DNA from: Methanothrix sp.
GTDB taxonomy: Archaea > Halobacteriota > Methanosarcinia > Methanotrichales > Methanotrichaceae
DNA: 36,359 nt
Direction: 5' to 3'
Assembly (NCBI GenBank): GCA_026394565.1
Contig: JAPKYA010000089.1
Span: 1 to 36,359, forward strand
Numbering within the stretch: position 1 is the first letter of the stretch; every line of letters begins with the position of its first letter. The notes under the pieces are model-generated. The model did not search any database. It was not told the DNA's origin and saw only the letters and a list, made by a program, of their open reading frames with translations. A program made the position numbers and the translations under genes. Below, piece after piece: positions 26,981-30,291 of this stretch.

Positions 26981-27904
26981 ATGGAACCTGAAAATCAAGC
27001 TACACAGACCCTCACCAGGCAAGGCTACCACCTCGTCGGATCGGGCGCAGTCAAGCCCTGCCTCTGGCTGAATCGCTCCCTGCGAGGCGGAGATCAGTGC
27101 TACAAGCACCACTTCTACGGCATCTCCAGCCACCGCTGCGTGCAGATGACGCCCACCCTGGAGTGCAACCACCTTTGTCTGCACTGCTGGAGGCCGATAG
27201 ACGATCCTGTGCCGGGAACTGCACCACTGGAGCCCGAGGCACTTTTGGACGGCATCCTGCTTGGCCAGCAGAAGTTTCTCTCCGGCTACGGCGGAGCCAA
27301 GACCACGGATATGGAGAGGCTGGCTGAGGCCCGGTTGCCCAAGCACGTGGCCCTCTCCCTCATGGGCGAGCCCACCCTCTATCCCTATCTAAAGGAGCTT
27401 ATCGAGCTGATCCGCAAGAGAGGCATGACAACATTTGTGGTGAGCAACGCCACCCACCCCGAGGTTCTGGCCGAGCTGCAGCCGACGCAGCTCTACCTCA
27501 GCATCAATGCTCCCGATGAGCAAATGTATCGCCGCGTCTGCCGGCCTGCGGCAGATCTATGGCCGCGAATTCTGGAGAGCCTGGAGATCATCAAGCAGCA
27601 CCGCTGCCGAAGCGTGATGCGCCTGACTTTGGTGCGCGGCCTGAATATGGTTAGGCCGGAGGACTACGCCCGTCTCATCGCGAGGGCCGAGCCGGACTTC
27701 GTAGAGGTCAAGGCTTACATGCACCTGGGCCGCTCCCGAGACCGCCTGACAAGGGAGGCCATGCCGCAGCACTCCGAGATCCTGGAATTTGCTCGCTCCT
27801 TAGGCGGAGCCCTGGGCTACGAGCTGGAGGCAGACGTGCCCCTGAGCAGGGTTGCCCTTCTCTCCAGCCGGCGCATGGAGAGAAGCCTGATAGATAAGAA
27901 CTAA
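26981..27904 (+). CDS. taw1: 4-demethylwyosine synthase (Taw1/TYW1)
   Basis: 307 aa. It builds the tricyclic base 4-demethylwyosine from N1-methylguanosine at position 37 of tRNA-Phe, using SAM and pyruvate. The radical SAM cluster is C62-NHL-C66-LH-C69. The second 4Fe-4S site uses C27, C40 and C53, matching the spacing known for archaeal Taw1. LSLMGEPTLYP and FVVSNATHPE follow the family. ATG at 26981. The gene is divergent from pentapeptide paralog 3 and stands alone. It must work with Trm5-type methylation, which is not in the window. Confidence 0.95.
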   Translation: MEPENQATQTLTRQGYHLVGSGAVKPCLWLNRSLRGGDQCYKHHFYGISSHRCVQMTPTLECNHLCLHCWRPIDDPVPGTAPLEPEALLDGILLGQQKFLSGYGGAKTTDMERLAEARLPKHVALSLMGEPTLYPYLKELIELIRKRGMTTFVVSNATHPEVLAELQPTQLYLSINAPDEQMYRRVCRPAADLWPRILESLEIIKQHRCRSVMRLTLVRGLNMVRPEDYARLIARAEPDFVEVKAYMHLGRSRDRLTREAMPQHSEILEFARSLGGALGYELEADVPLSRVALLSSRRMERSLIDKN

Positions 27905-28235: not shown

Positions 28236-28628
28236 ATGGACTTAGAAATAAAGATCCTGCTGGTGGAGGACAATCTTGAGGACGCAGCCGTAACAAAGCG
28301 CGTGTTATCGCACAATAAGCTGAATAAGGATCTGGTTATTGCAGCCAGAGGCAAAGAGGCCCTTGCCGCTCTGCAAAATATTACTAAGGCAGATTTGCCC
28401 CAGCTAATCTTGCTGGACATCAACCTGCCCGACATCAGCGGCATAGATCTTCTCACCTCCATAAAGAAAGACAATAATCTTCGGAGCATTCCTGTGGTCA
28501 TTCTTACCGGGTCCAATGTGGATCAGGATATTCAGAAGAGCTACGATCTGGGAGCCGACAGCTACCTGGTCAAGCCCATCTCCAATGACGCCTTGATGCT
28601 GGTCATCAAGAAGCTATTTTATCCCTGA
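28236..28628 (+). CDS. Single-domain response regulator (Rcp1-like receiver)
   Basis: 130 aa made of one receiver domain with no output domain. The acidic pair is E11/D12, the phosphoacceptor D61 (LLDINLP), the switch Thr is in VILTG, and the conserved lysine is in VKPIS (K113). The longer loop LQNITKADLPQ and VEDNLEDA resemble the Rcp1 group, which pairs with hybrid or phytochrome-like kinases. ATG at 28236 with GGTGA 4 nt upstream. No histidine kinase is adjacent, so it is an orphan. Its last 15 nt overlap the end of the convergent endonuclease IV gene. Confidence 0.92.
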   Translation: MDLEIKILLVEDNLEDAAVTKRVLSHNKLNKDLVIAARGKEALAALQNITKADLPQLILLDINLPDISGIDLLTSIKKDNNLRSIPVVILTGSNVDQDIQKSYDLGADSYLVKPISNDALMLVIKKLFYP

Positions 28629-29468
28629 GGCAAGACGCCTCGCCACTTCAAGATTCCCTCTATCATCCCGGCGGGCGTCCACCGGCGTCTCCAGTATCAT
28701 GGCCAGGTCGACAAGAGCGGGATGGCAAAGAATTGCCCGAAAGCCCTCCACGCCTATCTTCCCCAGGCCGATATGCTCATGCCTGTCCAGATGCGATCCG
28801 ATGGCCCCCCTGCAATCGTTGAGGTGGATGAGCATAAGCAACTCCAGTCCGATGCAATCCTGAAACTGATCCAGCGTCGCCTGCAATGCCCGAGGAGTTC
28901 GCAGGTCGTATCCTGCGGCATGAAGATGGCAGGTGTCCAGGCACACGCCCAGACGACGACGCTCAGACGGCAGGGATTCAAGGACTGCAGCAATATCGGA
29001 AAAAGTGCTGCCCATGCTGTTCTTTGTGCCGGCGCTGTTTTCCAGAAGCAAGACCGTATCGCCATCATACTCAGAAAAGACAGTCTGCAAAGCAGCTACA
29101 ATCCTCGCGAGCCCATTCTCCGGCCCCGCGCCCAGGTGACTTCCCAGATGAGTCACAAGATACGGTATGCCTAAAGTCTGGCAGCGCTCCAGCTCCCTGG
29201 CTAGAGCCTGCAACGATTTGGCATAAACCTCTTCCTTTGCCGAGGCAAGGTTGGGCAGGTAGGGCATGTGGTCCACCGCCGGAGAGAGGCCGGACTGCTT
29301 GAGCTGGGCAAGAAAGCGCTTTGCAGATTCGTCGGGGATGGGATTTGATCTCCAGCCGCGAGGATTGGAAGAGAAGATCTGAAATGCATCACATCCTTTT
29401 TCGCGAGCACGAGAAACGGCCCTGTCCACGCCGCCCGCCACGGAAACGTGCACGCCCAATCGCACCAT
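28614..29468 (-). CDS. nfo: Endonuclease IV (AP endonuclease, Nfo)
   Basis: 284 aa from ATG at 29468 (MVRLGVHVSVAGG); a TTG two codons earlier is possible. It cleaves DNA 5' of abasic sites in base excision repair using three zinc ions. The signatures FQIFSSNPRGW, LVTHLGSH, CLDTCHLHAAGYD, and HLNDCRGAIGSHLDRHEHIGLG (in parts) give the zinc ligands. Length matches the family. The 3' end overlaps the response regulator by 15 nt, an unusually tight convergent arrangement. Confidence 0.95.
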   Translation of the reverse strand: MVRLGVHVSVAGGVDRAVSRAREKGCDAFQIFSSNPRGWRSNPIPDESAKRFLAQLKQSGLSPAVDHMPYLPNLASAKEEVYAKSLQALARELERCQTLGIPYLVTHLGSHLGAGPENGLARIVAALQTVFSEYDGDTVLLLENSAGTKNSMGSTFSDIAAVLESLPSERRRLGVCLDTCHLHAAGYDLRTPRALQATLDQFQDCIGLELLMLIHLNDCRGAIGSHLDRHEHIGLGKIGVEGFRAILCHPALVDLAMILETPVDARRDDRGNLEVARRLASGIK

Positions 29469-29582
29469 ATTCAAGGCCTATGAGTGCTTCTCAGATCAAA
29501 CTTGCCCTGAGACCCGGGCCCCAGGGATAAATTGATCCCCGAAAAATGCACCCGGATTCGGTCCATCTTAATAGTAGACGAA

Positions 29583-29590
29583 CTATTTAG
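29583..29590 (+). promoter_or_regulatory. TATA-like box of the box C/D sRNA
   Basis: CTATTTAG centred about 22 nt before the predicted 5' end of the guide RNA at 29608, in agreement with archaeal TATA-to-start spacing. Weak consensus; position is the main argument. Confidence 0.35.
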
Positions 29591-29607
29591 GGCATGGATC
29601 CAAGTAA

Positions 29608-29672
29608 GCGACGCCGATGATGATATAGCATGCTCTGATGGCATGATGAGCCCTATGAGTTCTGAGGCGCGC
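29608..29672 (+). ncRNA. Box C/D methylation guide sRNA, D guide fitting C34 of a CAU-anticodon tRNA
   Basis: 65 nt with every element of an archaeal C/D sRNA in order: box C ATGATGA (29617-29623), 11-nt guide TATAGCATGCT, box D' CTGA (29635-29638), 4-nt spacer, box C' ATGATGA (29643-29649), 12-nt guide GCCCTATGAGTT, box D CTGA (29662-29665). The ends close with GCGACGCC/GGCGCGC (one bulged A). By the D+5 rule the D guide targets the C in 5'-AACUCAUAGGGC; the ACUCAUA core is the anticodon loop of a tRNA with anticodon CAU (elongator Met or Ile2), so C34 would be 2'-O-methylated. Haloferax has a comparable guide for elongator tRNA-Met. The D' target is not identified. Confidence 0.85.
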
Positions 29673-29703
29673 AAAAAAAAATAAGGAATTTCAAAAGAGG
29701 TAA

Positions 29704-29730
29704 GGGAAAAAAGGCTCCTTGTTTTTTCCC
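29704..29730. terminator. Bidirectional hairpin terminator
   Basis: GGGAAAAAA (29704-29712) and TTTTTTCCC (29722-29730) form a perfect 9-bp stem around a 9-nt loop. It begins 14 nt beyond the stop of the minus-strand gene at 29745. A run of nine A (nine T on minus) at 29673-29681 lies further downstream for that gene. U tracts occur on both strands. Confidence 0.6.
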
Positions 29731-29744
29731 GTTCTTTCCAGGCC

Positions 29745-30107
29745 TCAAGAAGGCATGCGAGCTTTCGCCCATCGGCCAATATTGTCGATCAGATTCAGCT
29801 CGACGATCTTTCGAGTATCATAAAGCATCTCTGCCACTTCATGAATTGCGATGCTCATCTTTTCGCCCTTCTTATCGACAACTTCGATGACCTCTTTGGG
29901 CATGGATTTGCCCATCTCCCGCATCTGTTCTGCCAGCAAAGAGCAGGCATTTTTTAGATATTTTATGGAGTAGTCTGATGTAGACTTCCTGTCGGCGAGG
30001 TTCTTATTGACCTCTTTGATGGACCAGCATATGGTGAGGATATCTCTGTACATCTCGGCACCCTGCAGGAGATCGCCCCGAGGATATTTAAGAGCTGTGG
30101 GGGGCAT
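29745..30107 (-). CDS. Small helical protein of unknown function
   Basis: 120 aa from ATG at 30107. The open frame extends further upstream, but there it overlaps the tRNA-Trp gene and cannot be real. A shorter start at 30053 (MYRDILTICWS, 102 aa) has GGGTG 5 nt upstream and is a strong alternative. Mostly helical and charged (CSLLAEQMREMGKSMPKEVI), with IGRWAKARMPS at the end; no signal or membrane segment. I do not recognise it. It follows tRNA-Trp on the same strand and may be cotranscribed. Confidence 0.6.
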   Translation of the reverse strand: MPPTALKYPRGDLLQGAEMYRDILTICWSIKEVNKNLADRKSTSDYSIKYLKNACSLLAEQMREMGKSMPKEVIEVVDKKGEKMSIAIHEVAEMLYDTRKIVELNLIDNIGRWAKARMPS

Positions 30108-30127
30108 AGGGAGATAGAATAAAAAGG

Positions 30128-30291
30128 TGGGGCTGGTGAGATTCGAACTCACGATCGACGGGTATCTCCGATATTCAGTGCTCCAACGGATCATCAACGA
30201 CCTCCCCGTCGAGAGATCTCAGTAGACCCGTTGCTCATCATTAAATTATACCGCTGGAGCCCATCGCCCTACCTGGCTAGGCCACAGCCCC
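30128..30291 (-). tRNA. tRNA-Trp (anticodon CCA) with 90-nt intron
   Basis: Minus strand. Exons are 30254-30291 and 30128-30163, 74 nt together. Acceptor GGGGCTG/CAGCCCC with discriminator A; anticodon stem ATGGG/CCCGT; anticodon loop CTCCAG+A (CCA at 30255-30257); T arm ends with TTCGAAT. The intron sits between positions 37 and 38. The bulge-helix-bulge motif is explicit: CTCC pairs with GGAG, the 3-nt bulges are AG^C and AT^A, and GGTAT pairs with ATATC inside the intron. A T run on the minus strand at 30121-30125 may terminate it. Confidence 0.95.
30164..30253 (-). ncRNA. Box C/D guide RNA inside the tRNA-Trp intron
   Basis: The 90-nt intron carries box C ATGATGA (30235-30241), D' CTGA (30219-30222), C' TGATGA (30191-30196) and D CTGA (30175-30178), each guide 12 nt. 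The D guide pairs over ten bases with the exon 1/intron junction and places its fifth base on C34. The D' guide pairs with exon 2 bases 38-43 and places its fifth base on C39. Haloferax tRNA-Trp intron guides the same two positions (C34 and U39). The 22-nt D'-C' spacer can form its own hairpin (CTCTC/GGGAG). Confidence 0.9.

Follow-up and report, generated by a model that had tools for sequence, protein, structure and literature searches.

A stand-alone box C/D sRNA in Methanothrix predicted to guide methylation of C34 in the intron-containing precursor of elongator tRNA-Met

The window analysed here, a 36,359-nucleotide contig of Methanothrix sp., holds a complete box C/D sRNA at positions 29608-29672 of the forward strand. 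Comparison with related genomes indicates that this RNA is very probably a guide for C34, the wobble base, of elongator tRNA-Met in its intron-containing precursor form. The locus is well conserved and belongs to an established kind of sRNA whose mechanism is already known; what is added here is this member and a survey of its relatives. Taken singly the locus is ordinary, and it extends the record of tRNA-Met wobble guides to the methanogens to which the window belongs (Methanothrix).

As in other archaeal box C/D sRNAs, the boxes follow the order C, D', C', D, the guides fall in the range of about 9-12 nt and a closing stem joins C and D. Box C (AUGAUGA, 29617-29623) is followed by the 11-nt D' guide UAUAGCAUGCU (29624-29634) and box D' (CUGA, 29635-29638), and after a 4-nt spacer by box C' (AUGAUGA, 29643-29649), the 12-nt D guide GCCCUAUGAGUU (29650-29661) and box D (CUGA, 29662-29665), all on the forward strand. 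In alignment A2, which has 19 rows with the window locus present twice, the TGATGA part of both C boxes and the whole of box D are invariant, and box D' is at least 90% conserved. The closing stem, CGCC/GGCG, is lengthened to 7 bp in the computed MFE fold, where 29608-29615 pair with 29666-29672 and A29611 is bulged. The fold energy is itself ordinary (z -1.31), with 21 of 200 shuffled sequences equally stable. Boxes, guides and stem all lie where the preliminary description, made from the sequence alone, had put them.

This architecture occurs only once in the window, on the forward strand, and was absent from both strands of 300 first-order Markov sequences of window length. The sRNA sits in a 270-base gap between two reverse-strand genes, one for a protein with an AP_endonuc_2 domain (Pfam; a xylose-isomerase-like TIM barrel; 28614-29474) and one a 150-aa ORF with no Pfam match (29745-30197). 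A mechanically called 102-aa ORF, also with no Pfam match, overlaps it on the reverse strand (29471-29779). Upstream, the TATA-like sequence CTATTTA (29583-29589, forward strand) is a possible promoter at a suitable spacing. The gap and this spacing agree with what the preliminary description had claimed, but by eye we found no conserved promoter among 26 upstream regions (4 of the 30 loci were unparsed and left out), and a counterpart of CTATTTA was recognised only in genome G009, as CTATTTG.

Family membership was checked against Rfam. In cmscan the sR41 model (RF01126) matched 29613-29667 over its full length with 56.0 bits (E 2.4e-10) against a curated cut-off of 54, which makes the RNA a member of that family. 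The margin is thin: in a genome-scale search the same place scored 41.8 bits, below the cut-off, and only one of 60 genomes passed it. At E 0.001 or better the model matched 57 of the 60 related genomes, the window's own included, and all 43 relatives with completeness of at least 90% and contamination of at most 5%. It was also positive in 3 of 14 named control genomes, namely Methanocaldococcus jannaschii, Haloferax volcanii and Methanosarcina acetivorans. The window RNA has the same boxes and D guide core, GAGCCCUAUGAG, as sR41 and differs only in the D' guide, which is nothing essential. This core is also identical to the consensus of the Haloferax sR-tMet family, in keeping with the likeness to a Haloferax tRNA-Met guide that had been pointed out beforehand. 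Against the sR-tMet model itself (RF02163) the RNA reached 34.7 bits, short of the cut-off of 50, and it differs from the Haloferax volcanii RNA by its 4-nt D'-C' spacer. The sR-tMet of H. volcanii (Joardar et al. 2011) is reportedly longer and unusual in its C'/D' region. The window RNA thus works like sR-tMet yet is not filed as a member of RF02163.

The two guides have fared very differently in relatives. Fifty homologues were compared, these being the loci parsed by pattern out of 59 (9 unparsed loci, and one genome with no fetched locus, were dropped). The D guide has only eight variants among them, with its ten inner positions 96-100% identical, whereas the D' guide shows 43 different 9-nt ends. 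Conservation of the boxes and the D guide, named beforehand as a source of support, was therefore observed. It also bears on whether the locus could be an unexpressed C/D motif, either decayed or arisen by chance, as the unconserved promoter might imply. We regard this as extremely unlikely, given a D guide held constant while the D' guide drifts, the sR41 matches in 57 of 60 genomes, the retention of neighbouring tRNAs in 19 of 21 family loci and the failure of the architecture to arise in any Markov sequence.

A target for the D guide was sought among tRNAs. Rfam tRNA searching of the window's own assembly, which has a completeness of 79%, returned 36 matches. Among the tRNA genes that ARAGORN read at these loci one has the anticodon CAU, and its three G-C pairs mark it as an initiator, a criterion also used in excerpts of PMC7668247. 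No elongator tRNA-Met was found in this assembly by Rfam, ARAGORN or similarity search, and a tRNA-Met arm sequence typed as a guess had no match in the genome. The probable target was therefore drawn from relatives. These carry an elongator tRNA-Met interrupted by an intron behind A37, together with a tRNA reading GGGCC...CUCGGCUCAUAACCGAG, which by sequence type we take to be tRNA-Ile2. A similarity search for the elongator tRNA-Met gave matches in 58 of 60 genomes, although five of these spanned no more than 22-26 bases; the window's genome gave no match. ARAGORN read 47 of 54 loci as CAU tRNAs with an intron after A37, beginning GGG in 45 and AGGG in two; in six of the seven loci that it left unparsed GGG was read directly by eye. 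An attempt to find targets in the 60 genomes with the full 12-nt complement of the D guide, CTCATAGGGCTC, was unsuccessful. Many matches were the sRNA itself and 12 others that were fetched held no tRNA by ARAGORN. This search missed the tRNA because the tRNA matches the guide only as far as the third or fourth intron base.

Pairing was assessed in 38 relatives in which both RNAs were parsed, a set that does not include the window's genome, with the fifth base before box D (G29657 in the window) placed on C34. In all 38 the guide and the precursor of elongator tRNA-Met form an uninterrupted duplex that runs across A37 to take in the start of the intron; it measures 12 nt in 20 genomes, 11 nt in 17 and 10 nt in one. 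The spliced tRNA offers less, with 8 nt in 34 genomes, 7 in two and 9 in two. Likewise, the computed duplex energy of the window guide was -19.3 kcal/mol with the precursor from genome G010 and -8.4 kcal/mol with its spliced form. By the D+5 rule the preliminary description had placed the guide on the wobble base, C34, of a tRNA with anticodon CAU, and this placement was found throughout; the pairing with ACUCAUA that it gave is also present, but the paired stretch is longer, at 10-12 nt including the first intron bases. As a control, three of 400 shuffled guides found a place in the tRNA set that scored as well as the precursor does. The D guide itself also finds a weaker 12-nt fit (8 Watson-Crick and 4 G-U pairs) near the 5' end of another tRNA of the window's genome. 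Going by its title, a 2016 study reportedly found an upper limit of 10 nt to what a C/D guide reads. Such a limit would still take in two intron bases here.

tRNA-Ile2 and initiator tRNA-Met both contain CUCAUA, and the guide might act on either in mature form, instead of or besides elongator tRNA-Met. Cm34 has indeed been placed on initiator tRNA-Met of M. maripaludis and P. furiosus by 2020 mass spectrometry, as excerpts of PMC7668247 report, so an initiator may be the target in other archaea. For the window guide the pairing makes this alternative very unlikely. With tRNA-Ile2 (from genome G003) or the initiator of its own genome, this guide forms no more than 8 contiguous pairs, of which two are G-U and none lies immediately past A37, at -8.1 kcal/mol against -19.3 for the precursor. 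Nothing in this tRNA-Ile2 adds complementarity beyond the shared CUCAUA. Guide bases 9-11 fit the tRNA-Met intron. In three Methanobacteriales pairs, furthermore, a C at guide base 2 faces G31 of tRNA-Met. Between the two candidates named in the preliminary description, tRNA-Met and tRNA-Ile2, the evidence thus favours the precursor of elongator tRNA-Met, and tRNA-Ile2 was rejected on its 8 pairs against 10-12 nt.

We propose that the locus is transcribed as a stand-alone sRNA of about 60 nt, which would assemble with L7Ae, Nop5 and fibrillarin into a 2'-O-methylation RNP. The D guide would pair with positions 30/31, the anticodon, A37 and the first three or four intron bases of pre-tRNA-Met, and fibrillarin would then convert the base opposite the fifth guide position before box D to Cm34. 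This modification would help C34 to read only AUG. Most of the discrimination against tRNA-Ile2 and the initiator, with their common CUCAUA, would come from the intron bases. Since the guide would pair with intron bases, methylation would precede splicing. Anatomy, conservation and the complementarity in relatives are observations of this analysis; transcription, RNP assembly, methylation and the occurrence of the same tRNA in this organism are predictions.

Similar guides are on record. Excerpts of PMC2584109 describe Cm34 of intron-containing tRNA-Met as guided by a stand-alone C/D sRNA, citing Pyrococcus sR49, and report 18 candidate guides; the sRNA pairs with a portion of the intron, which requires methylation to come before splicing. 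In these respects sR49 and the 18 candidates, which are likewise predictions, resemble the window RNA. For haloarchaea, excerpts of PMC4033218 name sR-tMet as the Cm34 guide, citing Joardar 2011. The tRNA-Trp intron guide (Rfam RF01133, sR3) is, from excerpts of PMC2584109, also a box C/D guide for an anticodon C34 that uses the pre-tRNA, but it sits inside the tRNA-Trp intron and guides two tRNA-Trp sites, whilst the window sRNA stands alone. Our literature search, which did not extend to supplements, found nothing on a tRNA-Met guide in Methanothrix or on covariation of guide and intron. There is also a conflict of names: the Rfam family that carries the tRNA-Met guide is called sR41 (RF01126), whereas excerpts of PMC2584109 assign that role in Pyrococcus to sR49 and treat Pyrococcus sR41 as an orphan that could modify G1950 of 23S rRNA.

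Two kinds of matched change were seen between guide and tRNA. In family f2 (genomes G037 and G039, of one genus) the intron begins with A where the others have G, and a change from C to U at guide base 9 restores the pair. The usual guide would pair with the f2 tRNA over only 8 contiguous nt, but with a bulge it would be about as stable (-17.9 vs -17.2 kcal/mol), and the change represents one event in one genus. In the three Methanobacteriales pairs, G31 of tRNA-Met stands in place of A31 and C replaces U at guide base 2. Covariation of guide and tRNA-Met is thus based on few independent events. Intron base 1 appears to lie in the splicing bulge, and the next two bases seem to be paired with a CC close to the intron's 3' end. 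A match at base 1 would therefore not be explained by splicing alone. Conversely, the GG at positions 2-3 looks to be held by the splicing motif as well, so its conservation would not be due to the guide alone.

The survey was then taken beyond close relatives. The guide with its flanking boxes was found at at least 120 loci, in records labelled as Methanothrix, Methanosarcina, Methanoperedens, Methanobrevibacter, Methanomassiliicoccales, Thermoplasmata, Poseidoniales, Natrinema and others. Thirty genomes were picked by hand from among the listed loci. In 21 of these the pre-tRNA-Met model found an intron-containing tRNA-Met reading CTCATAGGG, and one further tRNA-Met-like stretch was recognised by eye after a pattern search, at locus L378; neither model nor pattern search identified tRNA-Met in the other eight. 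Because most introns used to train the model begin with GGG, this search favours introns of that kind. Contiguous pairing in the 17 pairs computed was 9-12 nt.

These results bear on why the intron of tRNA-Met persists in archaea. It is conceivable, though we put it forward only tentatively, that guide and intron have been kept together by selection across Euryarchaeota. If the guide distinguishes elongator tRNA-Met from the other two CAU tRNAs by the bases at the start of the intron, a tRNA without the intron would also lack Cm34, which would help to explain the persistence of the intron. Guide and intron would then coevolve, as the matched change in family f2 suggests. A role for the guide's need in retaining the intron is compatible with the present results but draws on few covariation events. 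If true, the choice of one among three CAU tRNAs would give a testable reason for intron persistence.

The D' guide gave no comparable result. Against the 23S loci of genomes G003 and G055 its fit was equalled by 279 and 252 of 300 shuffles, respectively; no 23S rRNA was obtained from the window's own genome. In a set of 39 tRNA genes from that genome and one relative's pre-tRNA-Met, 388 of 400 shuffles did equally well. With respect to the 23S rRNA of these two relatives and this tRNA set the D' guide is best called an orphan, and neither of them supports the idea that it could have a new target. That the sRNA mainly serves rRNA through the D' guide, at sites matching AGCAUGCUAUA, with the tRNA match secondary, is extremely unlikely. 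Such a role would suit excerpts of PMC7994747, where 56% of Pyrobaculum guides have predicted rRNA targets and 16% tRNA targets, and relatives in other phyla do carry a second conserved guide. In the window's own lineage, however, the D' guide is unconserved and fits the 23S rRNA of G003 and G055 no better than shuffles do.

Two sorts of second guide were noted elsewhere in the survey. A D' guide reading AAGAGGGTCA stands at 22 of the 120 listed loci (L254, L237, L239 and 19 more, from Thermoplasmata, Poseidoniales and untyped Euryarchaeota). The sequence complementary to it, TGACCCTCTT, is present in the 23S rRNA of G055 at 1943 and of G003 at 1946 (L340, L341), a site that we take to be just after helix 69, near C1920 of E. 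coli. At another 22 listed loci (L222, L226, L266 and 19 more, mostly Methanobrevibacter and other Methanobacteriaceae) the tRNA-Met guide precedes D' and TGATGGGCGAn precedes D. Locus L337 of Hydrothermarchaeota has these two guides in the reverse order, as in a circular permutation.

The surroundings of the sRNA hold other genes connected with tRNA. A tRNA-Trp gene (30128-30291, reverse strand), whose intron is itself a box C/D RNA (Rfam sR3, RF01133; 30173-30245, reverse strand), lies beside tRNA-Lys. The tRNA-Met guide, tRNA-Trp and tRNA-Lys occur together in 19 of 21 parsed family loci and in none of the five loci of family f3. Since the tRNA-Met guide is kept beside tRNA-Trp, two C34 guides adjoin. 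About 1.7 kb from the sRNA, at 26981-27904 on the forward strand, is a gene for a radical SAM protein with a Wyosine_form domain, presumably a Taw1/TYW1-like tRNA modification enzyme.
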